Positions 29 to 14,361 of a DNA stretch of 23,501 nt are shown in pieces. Location of the stretch: the IMG/VR virus record IMGVR_UViG_3300030101_004452, positions 12,579-36,079 of that record. The stretch is one strand, 5' to 3'. Numbering within the stretch: the stretch's first letter is position 1; each line of letters begins with the position of its first letter. A program made the translations under genes and the position numbers. Under the pieces are notes generated by a model. It saw nothing but the letters and a program-made list of their open reading frames with translations, did no database searches and was not told where the DNA came from. The stretch comes from a virus.

Positions 29-86
29 AGCCCTACAGGGGAATCGAACCCCTACGCGCCTAAGCGCGGGTTCCCAAACTAGGGCT
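29..86 (-). other. tRNA-like element (T-arm plus acceptor-like stem)
   Basis: Read on the minus strand, positions 53-37 form a textbook T-arm: a 5-bp AGGGG/CCCCT stem closed by the canonical loop TTCGATT. Outside it, AGCCCTA (86-80) pairs perfectly with TAGGGCT (35-29), like an acceptor stem. Between them lie CGCGC-TTAG-GCGCG (68-55), which resembles a class II variable arm, and a short GGG/CCC pairing. There is no room for a normal D-arm plus anticodon arm, and no encoded CCA. An alternative fold uses CCAAA/TTTGG around a 7-base loop as an anticodon-like arm, which would make this the 3' half of a Leu/Ser-type tRNA. It could be a degenerate phage tRNA, an attP-like tRNA 3' fragment, or a structured 3' end of the leftward transcript. 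Confidence 0.45.
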
Positions 87-114
87 TTGGCTGTGTATTC
101 GTACGTGCTAGCGC

Positions 115-360
115 CTATACGAACGCGTCCGCTGGAAGTTGGCCGTTCTCGTCGAGAAGGCCTTGCAGACCGTCGGGCGCGCTCATCCATGCGTCCTCGA
201 TGGCTCTTCGCTTGTGTGAGTGTGCGTATGCGCTCGTAGGGAAATCACTCACGAACTCCTCCGCGTAAACGTCCAGAGCTTGTTGCTCTTCGCGGGTAGG
301 CACGTCTGTGTGTGCGGGTTCGATGCTTGTTACTTGTTCTTCGCGTAATATGCTTATCAT
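115..360 (-). CDS. Hypothetical 81-residue acidic protein, leftward
   Basis: I do not recognise the family. The product is 81 residues, hydrophilic and acidic at both ends, with a short basic patch (HKRR) in the middle and no membrane segment or signal peptide. The start is well supported: AAAGG lies about ten bases upstream of ATG, and a sigma70-like promoter and two inverted repeats precede it. It is the only convincing minus-strand gene in the window and is far richer in G+C than the structural genes. It points away from the late operon, so an early or regulatory role is possible, but this is inference from orientation and upstream signals only. The stop is followed within 30 bases by the tRNA-like structure. 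Confidence 0.7.
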   Translation of the reverse strand: MISILREEQVTSIEPAHTDVPTREEQQALDVYAEEFVSDFPTSAYAHSHKRRAIEDAWMSAPDGLQGLLDENGQLPADAFV

Positions 361-377
361 AGCTAGTTACCTTTCTT

Positions 378-397
378 CGCGTAGGACATCCTACGCG
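378..397 (-). promoter_or_regulatory. Perfect 9-bp inverted repeat in the leader of the leftward gene
   Basis: CGCGTAGGA (378-386) and TCCTACGCG (389-397) are exact reverse complements separated by two bases. The element lies in the 5' leader of the 81-residue gene, just upstream of its ribosome site. It could be a protein-binding palindrome or an RNA hairpin that modulates translation; the sequence alone cannot decide. Confidence 0.6.
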
Positions 398-418
398 TTT
401 GTTGTTATTAGTTAGTCA

Positions 419-446
419 CTCGGGATAGCCCCGTCAGCGACCCGAG
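419..446 (-). promoter_or_regulatory. Operator-like inverted repeat over the predicted transcription start
   Basis: CTCGGG (419-424) and CCCGAG (441-446) are exact 6-bp inverted arms with a 16-base gap. The right arm abuts the -10 element of the leftward promoter, so the repeat would cover the predicted start and first transcribed bases. That is a typical place for a repressor site, although a leader hairpin is equally possible. Confidence 0.4.
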
Positions 447-476
447 AATATACCCATGAAAACCTATGCAAGTCAA
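447..476 (-). promoter_or_regulatory. Sigma70-type promoter, leftward
   Basis: On the minus strand TTGACT (476-471) matches the -35 consensus at five of six bases and TATATT (452-447) matches the -10 at five of six, with an 18-base spacer. It directs transcription into the 81-residue gene, leaving a leader of about 80 bases. It begins immediately after the T-run of the leftward terminator. Confidence 0.65.
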
Positions 477-478
477 GG

Positions 479-503
479 AAAAAAAGCTTTACCGTCGGTA
501 AAG
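479..503 (-). terminator. Intrinsic terminator, leftward
   Basis: On the minus strand CTTTACC-GAC-GGTAAAG forms a perfect 7-bp stem with a 3-base loop (503-487), followed by C and seven T residues (485-479). This is a standard rho-independent terminator. It would stop a leftward transcript entering from the right, just before the next leftward promoter. Confidence 0.75.
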
Positions 504-520
504 GGAGGCAAAGCAATCCT

Positions 521-532
521 CTTACGCGTAAG
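521..532. repeat. 12-bp perfect palindrome with CGCG core
   Basis: CTTACGCGTAAG is its own reverse complement. It is one of four inverted repeats with a CGCG core or arm in the first 600 bases (others at 55-68, 378-397 and 572-584). Confidence 0.6.
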
Positions 533-571
533 GGAGCTAGCTTGGAGCCAAAAAAAATAATGATTGCCCGA

Positions 572-584
572 ACGCGAAACGCGT
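572..584. repeat. 5-bp inverted repeat with CGCG arms
   Basis: ACGCG (572-576), a three-base spacer, and CGCGT (580-584) form a perfect hairpin or dyad. It lies inside the possible leftward non-coding transcript. Confidence 0.5.
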
Positions 585-767
585 ACTCAACCAAATCCGA
601 CGAGCTAGCACCGAACGCGTAGGGGGTACTCGTATATATAGTACAAACCACAGATTTTTTGCACTATTTTAAAGTATCTAAAAAGCTTATTACATCAAAA
701 GGAATGGCTAGGCTATAAATATATATGCATGTATATCAATAACTTACAGACACACAATTATATTACA

Positions 768-7298: not shown

Positions 7299-8183
7299 AT
7301 GGCAAATGAAGACCAGAATAGTCACAATGAAGAGAAAATGAATGAAGATAACCTAATGACTGAATTACAACAGTTCAATGAAGGCTCTTCTCCAGATGTT
7401 GAAGAAGTACAAGAATCAACTGAGGAAGTTCAAGAACTTCAGAGTGATGAGAATAGTGATAAAGAACCTGAGAATGAATCACAGGTTGAGCAATGGCTAA
7501 TCGATAATAAGTTCAAAAATGATGAGGAAGGCGTTCAGAAACTAGCTGACGCTTACAAACAACTCCAATCAAAGTCCGATAAAGAACGGAATGAATGGAA
7601 TAGTAAACAGGAGAAGTTTGAAAAGCTAGAGCAGTTAGATAATTTTCTAGCAGATAATCCAGAAGTTGTCAAAAAGCTGTCAGAAGCAGTTGGAGATAAA
7701 CAAAAAGAATATTCTGGCCCACCTCAAAAGCCCGAAGACTATGACATTCTCGATGAATCCATTGATAACTCTAGCTCTGCTAAGTGGAGAAAAGCACATG
7801 ATGAATGGCTTATCAAACAAGGTGCATTTCAAGCCATGCAAGAGGTTGAAAAGTTAAAAGCTGAACTTTCACAGTCTCAAGCTTTTGATGCTGAAACCGC
7901 ACAGTTGCAGAAAATGGGGTTAAGCGATACAGAAATTGTTCAATATAGACAATTTATGGCTGACCCAAATAATGTAACTCAGGAGAACTTGGTTCAAATA
8001 TGGAAATCTTTATCAAATGGGAATAATCCTACTCAAGAAGTAGTTAAAGCTGAAGAGCCAAAAAAGAAGATAAAGCAAACGAGCCCCGCTTCTGTAACAG
8101 GACAAGCTCCAAAAGCTATACAGCCAGAGGAGAAAGCTATTGACAACTTTTGGAATGGGATTATGAAATACAATCGTAAATAG
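7299..8183 (+). CDS. Scaffolding protein (putative)
   Basis: A 294-residue protein between portal and capsid genes, the standard scaffold position. The first 65 residues are very acidic and low-complexity. Residues about 80-130 and 175-205 are predicted coiled coil. The C-terminus changes to a Lys-rich segment (EEPKKKIKQ) and ends in a short amphipathic helix, FWNGIMKYNRK, which matches the coat-binding C-terminus of many scaffolds. There is no catalytic motif. It has a strong GGAG site about nine bases upstream, suiting a product made in hundreds of copies. Sequence of scaffolds is poorly conserved, so the call rests on composition and position. Confidence 0.85.
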   Translation: MANEDQNSHNEEKMNEDNLMTELQQFNEGSSPDVEEVQESTEEVQELQSDENSDKEPENESQVEQWLIDNKFKNDEEGVQKLADAYKQLQSKSDKERNEWNSKQEKFEKLEQLDNFLADNPEVVKKLSEAVGDKQKEYSGPPQKPEDYDILDESIDNSSSAKWRKAHDEWLIKQGAFQAMQEVEKLKAELSQSQAFDAETAQLQKMGLSDTEIVQYRQFMADPNNVTQENLVQIWKSLSNGNNPTQEVVKAEEPKKKIKQTSPASVTGQAPKAIQPEEKAIDNFWNGIMKYNRK

Positions 8184-8185
8184 TG

Positions 8186-8208
8186 TTACAATTCAATTTG
8201 GATTGTAA
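8186..8208 (+). repeat. 7-bp inverted repeat between scaffold and capsid genes
   Basis: TTACAAT (8186-8192) and ATTGTAA (8202-8208) pair around a 9-base loop and leave the capsid ribosome site (AAAAAAGGAG) free. The stem is A+T-rich and has no T-run, so it is a weak RNA hairpin or a protein site rather than a terminator. Confidence 0.35.
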
Positions 8209-8231
8209 TGCAATAAAAAAGGAGATGCCTT

Positions 8232-9665
8232 ATGGCAAATACGACTTACGGTAGTGGAACAGCAATGCAATTCTCAAGTGGCGAGCAAAGACAAGTCCTT
8301 GAGCTTGGTGATAAAATCCACTATTACAATCCAGATGTCACTCCCATTTTCTCTCTGTTCGGAATGAGTTCTAATCCGACTCCTGTTCCAATCTTTGAGT
8401 GGATGGAAGATGAATACATGATAAAAAAATCTGTAGTTGTTGATGTTGATTCATCAGGAACTGAGATTAAAGACGCTACAGGTTCAGCTGTTAATAACAA
8501 AGGCTCTATCATTAGATTAAACAGACAAGCTCAAATGGAAGCATTTGAAGTTGGTGGTGTTTATGATGTGTCAGTTACTGGTGGTGTTACTGCAAATGCT
8601 AGCATGTCTCAAGTATTAGTTATTGCTACTGGAGAAGCATGTAGTATAGCTTCTGGAGATGAAAGAGATATTCAAATAATCTCTGGAGATGGTAGTGATT
8701 CTGCTAATTTTGTTCATAATCAACGTTCAGCAGGTTCAGCTTTATTTTCTCAATCTTCAAGTGCAGGAACAATTAGTTTTACTTATGTTGGTAATGCTGG
8801 TGTGTTCTCAACTTTTGCAAAACCAGGACATCAAGTAGGACAAACTTCATTAGCTGATAATGAAACTGCTCCTATTGAAACTGGTTCGCAAGGTTATGCA
8901 GAAGGTAGTGCTGTAGCAAATGAGTCACGTAAAAAAGTTCGTAGGTTAAAAAACTGTACGCAAATTTTTCGTGAGCCATACACCATTACTAATACTGCTA
9001 AAGTAGCTGAGCATTATGGTGGTTCTGAGTTAGCAAGACTTCAAGCTAGAAAACTTGCTAAAATCAAAGGAGATATTGAGTGGGCTATTTTAACTAATGG
9101 CGCTTTATCTCTTGATGATAGTTCTGAAAATCCAAAGAGAAAATTTCAAGGAATTGGACTTGGCTCTAGTGATGGCTTTATTAAGTCAAATAATGGAGAA
9201 GATAATGCTAATTTAAGATTAGGTTATGGTAGTGGAACTTTAGGACAGTTTGATGCTCTTGTAGAGTATTTATTTAGCGATATGGTTTCTGGAAGTATGA
9301 GTAAAACTGTATTTGCATCAAATAAGTGGATGATTAAACTTGTTGACTTATTAAGAGATGCTGATACTGGTTTTTACGATAGTGGCGAAGAATCAAGACT
9401 TGGAATGAGAGTTCGTTCTTATCTTGGCCCTGTTGGTGAGTTAAACTTTGTACCTCATCCATACTTAAAAGGAGCATATGCAGATTACGCTATAGCAATA
9501 GATGAAGCTAACTTTGATGTAAGACCTTTAAATGGTCGTGACATGCAGTTACGCTCTGACATTGTAAAAGATGGTCGCGATGGTCAAACTGATGAATGGT
9601 TGATGGAAGTTGGTGTTGAAGCTCGTAATGAGCAAACTCATGCTATACTTAAATTAAGCGCTTAA
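8232..9665 (+). CDS. Major capsid protein (HK97-fold, SU10/DUF5309-like)
   Basis: A 477-residue protein immediately after the scaffold. The N-terminus (DKIHYYNPDVTPIFSLFG) and the central helix ELARLQARKLAKIKGDIEWA fit the SU10-type major capsid pattern, in which a long spine helix is followed by substrate-like loops. The end carries YAIAIDEANFDVRPLNG and EWLMEVGVEARNEQTHA, a typical C-terminal A-domain. Residues about 125-200 are Ser/Gly-rich and could be an inserted surface loop. It has a strong GGAG ribosome site. A strong hairpin follows the stop. The family name is from pattern recognition; the functional call is firm from position, length and motifs. Confidence 0.88.
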   Translation: MANTTYGSGTAMQFSSGEQRQVLELGDKIHYYNPDVTPIFSLFGMSSNPTPVPIFEWMEDEYMIKKSVVVDVDSSGTEIKDATGSAVNNKGSIIRLNRQAQMEAFEVGGVYDVSVTGGVTANASMSQVLVIATGEACSIASGDERDIQIISGDGSDSANFVHNQRSAGSALFSQSSSAGTISFTYVGNAGVFSTFAKPGHQVGQTSLADNETAPIETGSQGYAEGSAVANESRKKVRRLKNCTQIFREPYTITNTAKVAEHYGGSELARLQARKLAKIKGDIEWAILTNGALSLDDSSENPKRKFQGIGLGSSDGFIKSNNGEDNANLRLGYGSGTLGQFDALVEYLFSDMVSGSMSKTVFASNKWMIKLVDLLRDADTGFYDSGEESRLGMRVRSYLGPVGELNFVPHPYLKGAYADYAIAIDEANFDVRPLNGRDMQLRSDIVKDGRDGQTDEWLMEVGVEARNEQTHAILKLSA

Positions 9666-9678
9666 TCAGTAAGGATAT

Positions 9679-9704
9679 ACTAGGGGCATTAATTTGCCCC
9701 TAGT
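9679..9704 (+). terminator. Strong 10-bp hairpin after the capsid gene
   Basis: ACTAGGGGCA (9679-9688) pairs perfectly with TGCCCCTAGT (9695-9704) around a 6-base loop. It sits 14 bases after the capsid stop. The downstream run is only AGCATTATT, so termination would be partial at best. It may protect the 3' end of the capsid message or reduce read-through to less abundant tail products. Confidence 0.65.
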
Positions 9705-9713
9705 AGCATTATT

Positions 9714-9854
9714 ATGAATATAACATACGGAACTAATTCAACAAGTTTTTCTAACGGAAGCTCACGTTTAAAAACAACTTTATCTAAAAAAGCTTCTAAA
9801 GTAAGAAAAAAATATAATAAGAGAAAAAAATATGCGTTATCAAGAAGCTTATGA
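9714..9854 (+). CDS. Tiny basic protein after capsid, 46 residues
   Basis: This open frame fills the gap between the capsid hairpin and the next gene and overlaps that gene by 23 bases. It reads MNITYGTNSTSFSNGSSR and then a Lys/Arg-rich helix. Thirteen of 46 residues are basic and none is acidic, like the small basic proteins near 1500-1834. There is no clear ribosome site, so translation is uncertain. If real it may be a minor DNA-binding or virion peptide. Confidence 0.45.
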   Translation: MNITYGTNSTSFSNGSSRLKTTLSKKASKVRKKYNKRKKYALSRSL

Positions 9855-10764
9855 ATTAATAGATATTGGTATTGTTTCTACTGGGATAGAAATACCTATA
9901 ACTGAAAGTTTAAAAATTATATATTTTGATAAAGCAGTAGAGCAAATTGCTATGCGTTCTGTTCTTAAAAAGAATATTGAAGAATTTACAACAAGTGGTA
10001 AAGAATATATCTTTAATAATGAAGATTATTCTGGTCAAGTTTATAAAGTAGAGCTAGATACTAAAGATGTTCCTTTTGTGGATGAAGCGTCTGTTATATC
10101 AAACATATCAGATGATAATATTTCTCATATAGGATATTTTTTAAAAACAGATAATTCTAAAACAGGAATTATAACCAATGTTACTCAAAGTTCAGACGCT
10201 GTTATTACAAGTGCCTCACATGGATTAACAACTAATGATTATATAATTATAAGTGAAGTAAGTGGAGCGACAGAAGCGGTAACAGGAAATGATATAATAA
10301 ATGGAAGGTCTAATGTTGGAGCTATTCCTAGTAATAATCAATTTACTTTAAACCCAGCAAAAAATACTTCAAGCGGAACAAATGCTCATGCATATATTAG
10401 CGGAGGAATATGGGAATTAGATAATAAGAAAATACATCTTACTAAAACACCAGATGTAGGAAGAACATTAAAAGTTCATTATTATGCAAAACCTTTAAAA
10501 AAAGATAGTGTTAGAAGTAGAATAGATTTACCAGACCAATTAATACCTGTAGCAATACATGAAACACTTGGTCATTTTTTAAATTTATCTGGCAATTTAC
10601 AATTAGGAACTGGACAGATGGGATTAGCAAAAAAAATTGAAAAAGATTATATAGAAACATCAAGAGCAAAAGAACCAATGCCTCATTTAATGCCTAATCC
10701 AATGCAAGTATTTGTTACAGATAGAAATGGGTCACCAGAAAATACAACAGGAGCAGATAACTAA
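9832..10764 (+). CDS. Head-to-tail adaptor candidate with beta-barrel insertion
   Basis: A 310-residue protein. The N-terminal 100 residues and the C-terminal 115 (DLPDQLIPVAIHETLGHFL, then a long helix) resemble phage head-completion or connector proteins, and it lies between capsid and nozzle genes. Residues about 110-192 look like an inserted all-beta module: GIITNVTQ...AVITSASHGLTTNDYIIIS...FTLNPA, which follows the 'V-x-x-HGL-x-x-G/N-D-x-V-x-I' pattern of the E1_FCCH-like domains found in phage virion proteins. The ATG lies inside the small upstream frame; AAGAGAAAAAAAT precedes it. The exact adaptor class is uncertain. Confidence 0.65.
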   Translation: MRYQEAYELIDIGIVSTGIEIPITESLKIIYFDKAVEQIAMRSVLKKNIEEFTTSGKEYIFNNEDYSGQVYKVELDTKDVPFVDEASVISNISDDNISHIGYFLKTDNSKTGIITNVTQSSDAVITSASHGLTTNDYIIISEVSGATEAVTGNDIINGRSNVGAIPSNNQFTLNPAKNTSSGTNAHAYISGGIWELDNKKIHLTKTPDVGRTLKVHYYAKPLKKDSVRSRIDLPDQLIPVAIHETLGHFLNLSGNLQLGTGQMGLAKKIEKDYIETSRAKEPMPHLMPNPMQVFVTDRNGSPENTTGADN

Positions 10765-11444
10765 TGGCTAGCTTTAGAATAAGAGTAGAAGATATTATTG
10801 GTAGTGTACCGAGTCTAGGTAGTGATAGTTCTAGCGCTACTGACCAAGCTGTTACAGATGCATTAACTGATACAGCTTTAGAAATATTTAATTTACTACC
10901 AGAACAAATATTATATCCTTATTCAGTAAGAAGTAGTATCGCAACAAGTAATCCAGTTATAGATGATATAGAAAAAATAAGAATACTCGGAGCTGAAAGA
11001 CAAAATGGAAACGATGCTCAGACAATAAATTTTATATCTTGTGTTTATATAGACCCTACATTGTTTTCAAAAGTTCAGCACCCAAAAAGTATTTATTTTG
11101 CAACTCAAGAATCTCCAGTATGGACTATTTTTAACAGAGATTTATATATTTTTCCAAAACCAGGCACAAGTGGCCCAACTGATGACGCAAATGGAGCGAT
11201 AGCAATTACAGTAACAGCTCCGACAGTATTACAAACAGATAGTTCAATTACTGTTTTCCCAAATGAGTTAGAGCATGTAGTTGTGCTTGGTGCTTGTGCT
11301 AGATTAAAACAAAGGTTTATTTCATTTTTTAATGAAGATGAAGACCCAGAGCTTGTTCAATTACATCGAGCTCAATATCAAGAATTACAACAAAAATATA
11401 AAGAAACGCTAGCACCTTTTCTAGCACAAAGCGCAGATGGCTAA
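10764..11444 (+). CDS. Head completion / tail adaptor protein (putative)
   Basis: A 226-residue protein whose start shares one base with the preceding stop (TAATG) and whose end overlaps the nozzle candidate by 8 bases. It has helices at both ends (QAVTDALTDTALEIFNLLPEQ and ELVQLHRAQYQELQQKYKE) around a beta-rich middle with WTIFNRDLYIFPKP. That layout, with LEHVVVLGACARLKQ in the C-terminal third, is usual for small adaptors that bind below the portal. I do not assign a named family. The position between the first adaptor and the nozzle supports the role. Confidence 0.65.
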   Translation: MASFRIRVEDIIGSVPSLGSDSSSATDQAVTDALTDTALEIFNLLPEQILYPYSVRSSIATSNPVIDDIEKIRILGAERQNGNDAQTINFISCVYIDPTLFSKVQHPKSIYFATQESPVWTIFNRDLYIFPKPGTSGPTDDANGAIAITVTAPTVLQTDSSITVFPNELEHVVVLGACARLKQRFISFFNEDEDPELVQLHRAQYQELQQKYKETLAPFLAQSADG

Positions 11445-14361
11445 ACAGATTTTAAATTTAAATGACTTTCGTGGTGGTTTAAATACTTCTGATGACCCAA
11501 GAGATATTGACATAAATGAATTTAGTCAAATAAATGGTATACGAGTAGATAAAGCTGGAAAAATATTAAAACAAGGAAGTTTAGCTACAAATCTATTTAA
11601 TTCATCAGTAGTCCCATTTTTTTCTACCGATGTTCAAACTAAAGGAGCTGGTTTGTTTGCATTTAGCCATGACTATAATGGTGCAGGTGCTAGTGATTTA
11701 GAAATTTTAAAAAATGGGAATGGAACATATTTAACGTTTTGGAGCGGAGGTTCTACAGGTACAACCTATTTGCAAAGAACTTCTACTTTTGTAAAATGGA
11801 ATAGTGCAAATATTGACCAAACAGGTGGAGATACACTTAGTCAATCAGCTAGTAATAGATATTCTAGAGGCGTAAATAATGCTAAATATAGACTTACTTA
11901 TACAGTAGCAAACTATACGGAGGGTGCTGGAAGTGTTGCTTATACATTTAAATTAACAGGTTTTAGTTTAGCAACTCTAGACACAGTAGCTAATGGGACT
12001 TTTACAAAAGAATTTACTACTGGCTCAAATGCAACTGGACAAGCTTTTGGTATTCAATTTACAAACACAGGTAGTGCAACTATAAGTTTTAAGTTATCTA
12101 ATATAAAATTAGAGTTAATAAGTGCTCAAAATATATCTGATGATTATTTAGCATTTTATAAAGGGTCTACTCAAGATGGTGGTAATAGAATATTTTTTTA
12201 TTCATATAAAAATAACACTTTATCTAATTTTGATAGTTCTACAGCTTCTATTGTAAAACTTGGAGTAGGAGTCGATGAAACAGCTCATCCTCAATATCAT
12301 ATTGCAGATGGCAATATTAGAATATCAGATAGATTAAAAAATGAAGTAAATATATTATATTGGTATGGTTATGTAAATAGAAAAAGATGGAATAATGCTG
12401 TAACTGTAAATAGATGGGTATATACAGAAGCGAGAATAATAGCACCTACTTCAAGCAATGTAAGCACTACTTCTCCTGGAGGCCCATATAACCCAAACGA
12501 AGGTGTAATAAGTATTGCAAATCAAGGTTTTTTTGGGACTGTTGCTGATACAGGCACTTGGAATAGTCTTGGAATATCAAGCTCTACAACTTCAAATTGT
12601 AATCAAGGACAAATAATAGATAATACAAAAACATTTTCTCAGTCTTTAATAGATGAAGATTATTATGTAAGAATAACAAGTGGAACTCATAATAATAAAA
12701 TTGCAAAAATTGTAAGACGTGTTGATTCTAACACTTTAATGTGCGGAAGAGATGTAGGTAGTAATTCTTTTTTTACATTAGCAAACGCAACTAATTACAT
12801 AATATATAAACCATATTCTTTTTACATTTCTTTTATTTATGATAATAATCAAGAAAGTTTATTGTATAAAATTTCAGATGATATTGCTAATGTTGCAAAT
12901 GCTTCTTTTTTTAGTGGAGATATAGTAGTAAAGCATAAATGGGATAGTAATTTATTATCTAGAATTACTGGTGCAAATTTTTATTATTCTGAAGGAATTA
13001 CTAATTCAAATGAAGTTGAATTAGATTATTATTTTTTATTTGAATTAGATTTTAACAAAGGAATAAAAATAGTAGGAAATTCTGATTATACAAAAAGTTG
13101 GTCAACTGTTTCTTCAGAATATCAGATTAACTGTGAAATTACAAATCCTTTAAAATTAGTTACGTATGAAGATAAAAATGGTTTTAAAAATGATTCTTCA
13201 CTTTTATTTGATATGCACAATTCTGGAACTGATGGAGTTGGTTATATTGATGGAGTGTATGCTAATAGAAAATTTTATATTGGTAATATTACATTAAAAA
13301 ATGAAAATGGTGTTTATATAAACTATAATGATTTAATGTTAAAATCTTTGCCAAATAAATTTGATACATTTTTATTAAATGACAAAATAGAAGTAAGTGT
13401 TCAAGATGGTGATGAAATTACATGCTTAGAATCTTATGCAGATAGACTTCTTCAATATAAAAAAAATAAATTACATATAATTAATATATCTCAAGATGTA
13501 GAGTTTTTAGAAGACACACATTTGCACAAAGGTGTTATAAATGCAGAAGCTGTAGTAAAAACTGATTATGGTGTTGCTTGGGCAAATCAACATGGGTGTT
13601 TTTTATATGATGGTAATAATATTATTAATTTGTTAGAAATAAAAGGAAAAAAAGTAATAGATGCAAATCAAAGAGATTTAACAAATGGTACTGGATGGTT
13701 TAGTGATGTAGATACACCATTTTTAGGATATGAGCCACATTTAAGACAAATATTTGTTGCATTAAATCCTAGTCAATCTTCAAATAGTCCTATGTATATA
13801 TATGATATCCCAAGCAAAAGTTGGTCTTTTATTTCTCATGGACTTGGAAATGATGAAAGTAATTCTGGCCCTGTTAGTAATTTTGTAAATGATAAAAACG
13901 GAGATGTTAATATCATGACTATGGGCAATGGTGGTAGTGAAAGTCAATTTATGATTTGGAATCCAGATGGTGGGGGTAGTTATGTAAACAGTAAAATATT
14001 TTCATCAAAAGATATAGATTTTGGTTTTCCTTCTGTAAGAAAAAAAGTTTATAAATTAAGATTGTCTTACAAAGGAAGTGCAAATAATGTTACTGTAAAA
14101 TATAGTATAAATGGAGATACAGATACTTTACATCAATTTGAATTAGTTGATACTAATGGTAAATCTACAGGAACGGCTTCAAATAATCCTCTTGTAACTC
14201 AAAGTGATTTAACAGTTTGGCATGAAGCTGAATTAAAACCTGCTGTATCATCGCAAACTAATAATATATTTAGTTTTCAAATACATGTAGGTGGAACATT
14301 GCAATCAAATTTTTCTATTAATGATATGTCAATTATTTATAGATTAAAGAGTATAAAATAA
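11437..14361 (+). CDS. Tail nozzle-like structural protein with jelly-roll insertion
   Basis: A 974-residue, beta-rich protein. The N-terminus, LNLNDFRGGLNTSDDPRDI, and INGIRVDKAGKI are a common signature of large podovirus tail tube/nozzle proteins (T7 gp12-like in place and size, though sequence similarity is not claimed). Propeller-like repeats follow in the C-terminal half: GVAWANQHGCFLYDGNNII and MYIYDIPSKSWSFISHG. Residues about 110-230 look like an inserted carbohydrate-binding-type jelly roll (YRLTYTVANYTEG ... TFTKEFTTGS ... ISFKLSNIKLELI). Another short beta module lies near 375-460 (VRITSGTHNNKIAKIVRRVD). It would close the head and form the DNA channel; a sugar-binding surface role for the insert is inference. 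Confidence 0.7.
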   Translation: MAKQILNLNDFRGGLNTSDDPRDIDINEFSQINGIRVDKAGKILKQGSLATNLFNSSVVPFFSTDVQTKGAGLFAFSHDYNGAGASDLEILKNGNGTYLTFWSGGSTGTTYLQRTSTFVKWNSANIDQTGGDTLSQSASNRYSRGVNNAKYRLTYTVANYTEGAGSVAYTFKLTGFSLATLDTVANGTFTKEFTTGSNATGQAFGIQFTNTGSATISFKLSNIKLELISAQNISDDYLAFYKGSTQDGGNRIFFYSYKNNTLSNFDSSTASIVKLGVGVDETAHPQYHIADGNIRISDRLKNEVNILYWYGYVNRKRWNNAVTVNRWVYTEARIIAPTSSNVSTTSPGGPYNPNEGVISIANQGFFGTVADTGTWNSLGISSSTTSNCNQGQIIDNTKTFSQSLIDEDYYVRITSGTHNNKIAKIVRRVDSNTLMCGRDVGSNSFFTLANATNYIIYKPYSFYISFIYDNNQESLLYKISDDIANVANASFFSGDIVVKHKWDSNLLSRITGANFYYSEGITNSNEVELDYYFLFELDFNKGIKIVGNSDYTKSWSTVSSEYQINCEITNPLKLVTYEDKNGFKNDSSLLFDMHNSGTDGVGYIDGVYANRKFYIGNITLKNENGVYINYNDLMLKSLPNKFDTFLLNDKIEVSVQDGDEITCLESYADRLLQYKKNKLHIINISQDVEFLEDTHLHKGVINAEAVVKTDYGVAWANQHGCFLYDGNNIINLLEIKGKKVIDANQRDLTNGTGWFSDVDTPFLGYEPHLRQIFVALNPSQSSNSPMYIYDIPSKSWSFISHGLGNDESNSGPVSNFVNDKNGDVNIMTMGNGGSESQFMIWNPDGGGSYVNSKIFSSKDIDFGFPSVRKKVYKLRLSYKGSANNVTVKYSINGDTDTLHQFELVDTNGKSTGTASNNPLVTQSDLTVWHEAELKPAVSSQTNNIFSFQIHVGGTLQSNFSINDMSIIYRLKSIK

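Follow-up and report, generated by a model that had tools for sequence, protein, structure and literature searches.

The window, i.e. the whole stretch of 23,501 nucleotides that was analysed, is part of a virus record of 36,079 bases from IMG/VR. At its left end lies a block rich in the tetranucleotide CGCG. To the right of this block are rightward genes, including those for terminase, portal and major head protein (PHROGs assignments). To its left is a leftward operon, on the minus strand at positions 7703-12504 of the record (L002), whose proteins include a MoxR-like AAA ATPase, a DUF7192 protein, a pyrimidine-dimer DNA glycosylase and a PC4-like coactivator. A 10-N scaffold gap adjoins the left edge of the window (record 12569-12578), so that in this record no continuous sequence links the block to the leftward genes; close relatives run across it without any gap. 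The block is the head of the leftward operon, in agreement with the original prediction, which had placed it in a leftward control block. Its features are collected in Table 1.

Table 1. Features of the CGCG-rich block, in window coordinates.
Feature	Position	Strand	Remarks
tRNA-like RNA (candidate)	29-86	-	58 nt; covariance model 63 bits in the window
Acceptor stem	79-85 with 30-36, plus A86-T29	-	part of tRNA-like RNA
GG-bearing linker, in place of D-arm	69-78	-	part of tRNA-like RNA
Middle hairpin, in place of anticodon arm	55-68	-	part of tRNA-like RNA; one of the four predicted dyads
T-arm	37-53, loop TTCGATT 42-48	-	part of tRNA-like RNA
Small ORF, 81 aa	115-360	-	homologues of about 81-145 aa
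Hairpin upstream of the small-ORF ribosome site	378-397	-	found in 21/23 leaders
Hairpin C, CTTTACCG-A-CGGTAAAG then T run	487-503	-	covariation
Palindrome CTTACGCGTAAG	521-532	-	relatives keep the word, not the dyad
Hairpin B, ACGCG-TTT-CGCGT	572-584	-	within conserved string GTTGAGTACGCGTTTCGCGTT
First leader word CTACGCGTTCGG	609-620	-	alignment of 23 leaders
Predicted sigma70-like promoter	638-666	-	conserved string TGTGCAAAAAATGnATGG ahead of the block in relatives

The original prediction started from a hand count of CGCG, 13 copies in positions 1-640 and 6 in the other 22.9 kb of the window, and this tally is exact. The copies start at 55, 65, 124, 178, 262, 291, 342, 378, 394, 525, 573, 580 and 616 within the block, five of them being codons of the small ORF, and at 1778, 2082, 2450, 7075, 9576 and 17323 in the rest. 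The four inverted repeats that had been listed are also exact: 55-68 (5+4+5), 378-397 (9+2+9), 521-532 (6+6) and 572-584 (5+3+5). We compared these counts with 300 dinucleotide-preserving shuffles of positions 1-640. The shuffles held on average 7.2 CGCG (sd 2.3), and 5 of the 300 reached 13. CGCG dyads with 5 or more bases per arm numbered 4, against 0.7 in shuffles (3/300), and ACGCGT was present 5 times, against 0.4 (0/300), with no copy in the window beyond position 640. The excess was weaker for dyads of any sequence with arms of at least 5 (9 against 4.7, 22/300). The first 500 bases have a G+C content of 52.6%, against about 33% across the rest of the window, and the CGCG excess outlasts dinucleotide shuffling: the pattern exceeds a G+C effect, as had been claimed. 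When the count was continued to the left, as had been proposed, only 6 CGCG were found in the 12.6 kb of the same record past the gap; in two close gap-free relatives, copies of CGCG extend a few hundred bases further downstream, past the tRNA-like element. Summed over 20 homologous blocks, which are related and therefore give non-independent counts, CGCG reached 248 copies against 125 expected, and ACGCGT 79 against 8.5, a 9-fold excess over shuffles.

Some other repeats and words were recorded in passing. CTAG is present in 103 copies in the whole window and GCTAGC in 23; in related blocks CTAG reaches 163 copies against 57 expected, and GCTAGC is likewise in excess. Positions 767-838 hold short repeats, tandem-like and about 11 bases long, centred on ATAGCnnnGC, and a sub-threshold Rfam match to SpF25 falls on these short ATAGC repeats and was rejected. 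Several relatives (L041, L085, L102) have similar CTATAGC repeats after the tRNA-like element. In distant relatives only, outside the group of the window, ACACCC recurs often on the leftward strand, both between and within leftward genes and beside ribosome sites (L010, L032, L033, L041).

The block is kept in relatives, as the original prediction had anticipated: 37 distinct leaders were found in uncultured phage contigs of IMG/VR, of which 23 share less than 92% identity. The small ORF and a rightward gene gave access to a close pair of contigs, with about 91% and 89% identity over bases 3-1564, and to several distant contigs that carry the same G+C-rich, CGCG-rich block. More contigs were collected via the leader string, the tRNA-like element, the promoter and small-protein alignment. 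To avoid selection bias, contigs found by the hairpin B pattern were not counted for hairpin B conservation, which was judged on others, reached by way of the tRNA-like element, the promoter or proteins. In other relatives that have the rightward gene, neither the CGCG block nor the tRNA-like element is present in the available stretch. Against INPHARED phages the block gave no near, distant or protein match bar one at chance level, and none of the relatives is an isolated phage of INPHARED. No true host-genome match was found: a match to the hairpin B string in a Terriglobia genome (L168) was set aside as chance, since it falls within coding sequence and its contig, of 62% G+C, has no tRNA-like element. 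L095, which has the leader string alone, no T-arm and an ordinary context, also looks like chance, as do most extra promoter-pattern matches (L129, L130, L132, L134-L145).

Pieces of tRNA genes are often carried by phages at attachment sites. The block, with about 50-56% G+C against about 33% in the rest, might accordingly be recently acquired host DNA, e.g. an attachment site that includes a fragment of a tRNA gene, and its composition would produce the CGCG excess. We consider this very improbable. CGCG is above its level in composition-matched shuffles, the 23 diverged leaders retain the block, ARAGORN found no tRNA in it, and no integrase was seen in the subset of ORFs whose proteins were examined. 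Moreover, the stems of the tRNA-like element covary (see below), unlike those of a decaying fragment, which largely refutes an attachment-site remnant.

Comparison of the relatives shows a cassette with the order predicted sigma70-like promoter, leader of about 275 nt, small ORF and tRNA-like element. The predicted promoter has a -35 box TAGTGC at 661-666 (TTGTGC or CTGTGC in relatives), a spacer of 17 bases and a -10 box TACTAT at 638-643, so that transcription would start near 631. Folding of the leader beats that of its own shuffles (mean z -2.3 over 14 relatives). At the position of the first leader word, some relatives have a hairpin such as ATGCG-TTT-CGCGT or ACGCG-TTT-CGCGT. Hairpin B is the most conserved of the four dyads and near invariant, its loop being TTT, TTA, AAA or ATT; it is lost in L041, and its outer A-U pair is broken in some contigs. 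Among contigs that were not selected by its string, the inner four pairs vary by G-U wobble only (CGCG/TGCG, CGCG/CGTG, TGCG/CGTG), with no double change. We favour for it, short of proof, an RNA stem over a DNA word. The palindrome at 521-532 has lost its dyad in relatives, and its word CTCTACGCGT is kept in somewhat more than half of the leaders. In hairpin C, 4 of the 6 pairs have changed on both sides (13 cells against 7.5 in shuffles, 0/500), pointing to RNA folding, more weakly than for the tRNA-like element.

Hairpins directly downstream of a predicted promoter, followed at 503-487 by a hairpin that in the window is terminator-like, with a T run, are what might be expected of put-like antitermination RNA, which would bind RNA polymerase and cause read-through of hairpin C and later terminators. 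In HK022, putL is similarly placed just downstream of an early promoter and acts as RNA alone (PMC9378689). However, put RNAs are about 70 nt long with two long stem-loops (PMC9378689), whereas hairpin B has only 5 pairs, many relatives lack the second, upstream hairpin, and in many of them hairpin C is followed by a weak T run. A put-like function is in our opinion unlikely.

Another possibility is that the repeated TACGCGT/ACGCGT word is a DNA operator, where a phage or host regulator bound on several copies represses or activates the operon. Copies of ACGCGT recur at several spots just downstream of the predicted promoter, and the rest of the window has none. Hairpin B varies very little, and at 525 the word is retained without its dyad. 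The 9-fold excess of ACGCGT is not accounted for by RNA stems alone, and for this reason the operator gains weight. Across the dyads the picture is mixed: hairpin B and the CTCTACGCGT word are conserved, and the CGCG dyads at 55-68 and 521-532 are not; at 55-68, CGCG is missing in most relatives and the RNA stem is retained. In addition, the wobbles of hairpin B keep an RNA stem and break a DNA dyad (L119, L124, L127, L133), the hairpin at 378-397 is altered by a compensating pair, and the first two words are 36 bases apart in the window and 18 in L032. We find an operator rather unlikely on balance. The original prediction had suggested a shared DNA site for a regulator; for a single operator this is not supported, the dyads belonging to different elements, and what survives of it is a possible role of the TACGCGT word.

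The hairpin at 378-397 stands just upstream of the ribosome site of the small ORF, AAAGG on the minus strand (CCTTT at 370-374 on the plus strand). Over the leaders, 96.5% of its cells are paired, with one pair swapped between U-A and A-U, plus wobbles, suggesting RNA folding, again more weakly than for the tRNA-like element. No known family was found for the 81-aa protein. The small proteins seem mosaic, with shared blocks, e.g. EEAWLNADDGLKALLDENGQLPPDAFI and DIPTPEEEQALLAYEEHFR, in differing combinations and lengths.

The element at the end of the cassette, read on the minus strand from 86 to 29, is A-GCCCTAG-TTTGGGAACC-(CGCGC-TTAG-GCGCG)-T-AGGGG-TTCGATT-CCCCT-GTAGGGC-T, with the middle hairpin in parentheses. 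A homologue has other letters and the same build: AACCCTAG-ATGGT-(CTACCCC-TTT-GGGGTAG)-CTAGG-TTCGATT-CCTAG-CTAGGGTT. Among 22 distinct sequences, pairing holds in 94.5% of cells. Changes on both sides were found in 10 of the 20 pairs, amounting to 35 cells against 7.2 in shuffles (0/500), and this covariation signal vanishes once the partners are slid. All cells of the 5-bp T stem are paired, 3 of its pairs having changed on both sides. In the acceptor, every pair but one stays paired and 4 have changed on both sides; at the innermost position a G faces a G in the window, and L004 has a G-C pair there. As the scanner that collected the set demanded paired acceptor and T stems, the percentage paired is partly built in there; it made no demand on pair types, on the middle hairpin or on the GG of the linker. 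This GG is present in 33 of 33 elements, and the T-loop is TTCGANT across the homologues found by the scanner. The middle hairpin is in most relatives devoid of CGCG, as in the homologue above, and its loop is variable (TTT, TTC, AAA, TAAA, GTA, TTAG, TGTAAG). The covariance model prefers the leftward strand (73 against 21 bits on the opposite one), and the element has a fixed place after the small ORF wherever the available sequence suffices. The window's own copy folds modestly better than shuffles (z -1.2 and -1.8 in two tests). In most relatives, a string near GATACACAACCAA lies 5' of the acceptor stem and is better conserved than the adjoining bases.

This comparison shows strong covariation in support of folding as a tRNA-like RNA. 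The 86-29 segment is built like the acceptor and elbow of a tRNA, without D stem or anticodon. It shares with tRNA-like structures a conserved acceptor stacked on a 5-bp T stem with a TTCRANN loop. A tRNA gene would have a D-arm and a 7-nt anticodon loop with U33; here there is no D stem and the middle loop is variable. No CCA is encoded after the acceptor, ARAGORN made no tRNA or tmRNA call, and an Rfam scan gave only sub-threshold matches. We dismissed a decoding tRNA with a 5-bp stem, loop CCUUUGG and anticodon UUU, since position 33 holds a C and neither the length nor the sequence of the loop is constant.

Taking the four dyads together, 55-68 covaries, 378-397 has one swap, 572-584 varies by G-U only and 521-532 is kept as a word only. 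The second proposal of the original prediction, a family of RNA hairpins, is probably right in that the dyads would mostly be RNA stems, and wrong in that they form no single family. We propose, with a probability of roughly 60%, that the CGCG dyads for the most part form stems of distinct RNA elements, carried by a single conserved leftward transcript. The CGCG cluster would then be the G+C-rich head of a leftward phage operon, transcribed as one RNA from the predicted promoter. The tRNA-like element would keep the features that RNase P and RNase Z measure, a 7-8 bp acceptor on a 5-bp T stem and a TTCGA T-loop, and the GG of the linker could pair with the T-loop as in the elbow of tRNA. Because acceptor, T stem, T-loop and GG are retained, we infer that host tRNA-processing enzymes would cut the message there; promoter and start site are likewise inferred. 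Such a cut would part the mRNA of the leader and small ORF from the downstream operon and yield, besides, a stable RNA of about 58 nt. The hairpin at 378-397 would hold the ribosome site open or shield the 5' side, and the leader hairpins would either affect RNA polymerase or serve as a binding site for a phage protein, this role of the leader being the least certain part of the explanation.

The broader proposal, that the first leftward operon of these uncultured phages carries a tRNA mimic without D stem or anticodon which host tRNA enzymes cut out, is tentative, and we would place the odds somewhat against it. If true, the operon would have two products: a processed mRNA and a free small RNA, tRNA-like and with a role of its own, e.g. 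as a decoy for, or a regulator of, host tRNA metabolism. A covarying tRNA-like RNA tied to a conserved leader and to a small protein of no known family is a concrete target, and its ends are predicted to the base. More generally, a hand-counted word cluster can flag a group of RNA elements and not a single operator.

Structures resembling tRNA are of a known kind; the phage version without D stem or anticodon appears new, with no described match in Rfam, INPHARED or the open-licence PMC papers searched, a set that may miss a published account. It would enlarge the short list of tRNA-like structures by a phage-borne mimic without anticodon. The tRNA-like domain of tmRNA combines an acceptor and T-arm with a D region that has no full D stem, and another helix replaces its anticodon arm. 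The phage element shares all four traits, but we saw no tag reading frame or pseudoknots, and its acceptor begins A/G-C-C, not GGGG. HK022 putL and putR are also RNA hairpins near the start of a leftward or early phage transcript (PMC9378689); size and stem length differ. Minimal mitochondrial tRNAs are shortened forms with an arm missing (PMC2797822). They resemble the phage element in these respects, but the latter has no conserved 7-nt anticodon loop and a decoding role is for that reason unlikely. Another likeness is to mascRNA and menRNA (RF01684), tRNA-like RNAs released from MALAT1 and MEN beta. RF01684 is the best Rfam match in the window, at 27.2 bits, below the gathering cutoff of 42.5, and six relatives gave no match to it. 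In mascRNA, RNase P and RNase Z recognise an elbow made of guanosines of the D region and the T-loop (PMC11693755). Shared with the phage element are a length of about 58 nt, the acceptor stem, the T-arm, an elbow-capable GG, a reduced D region, a compact loop replacing the anticodon loop and a position inside a longer transcript. The phage element differs in having no D stem at all, in coming from a phage and not a mammal, and in that its cleavage is only predicted. The likeness is one of build, not of descent, and if the proposal is true the element would be the bacterial-virus counterpart of mascRNA.
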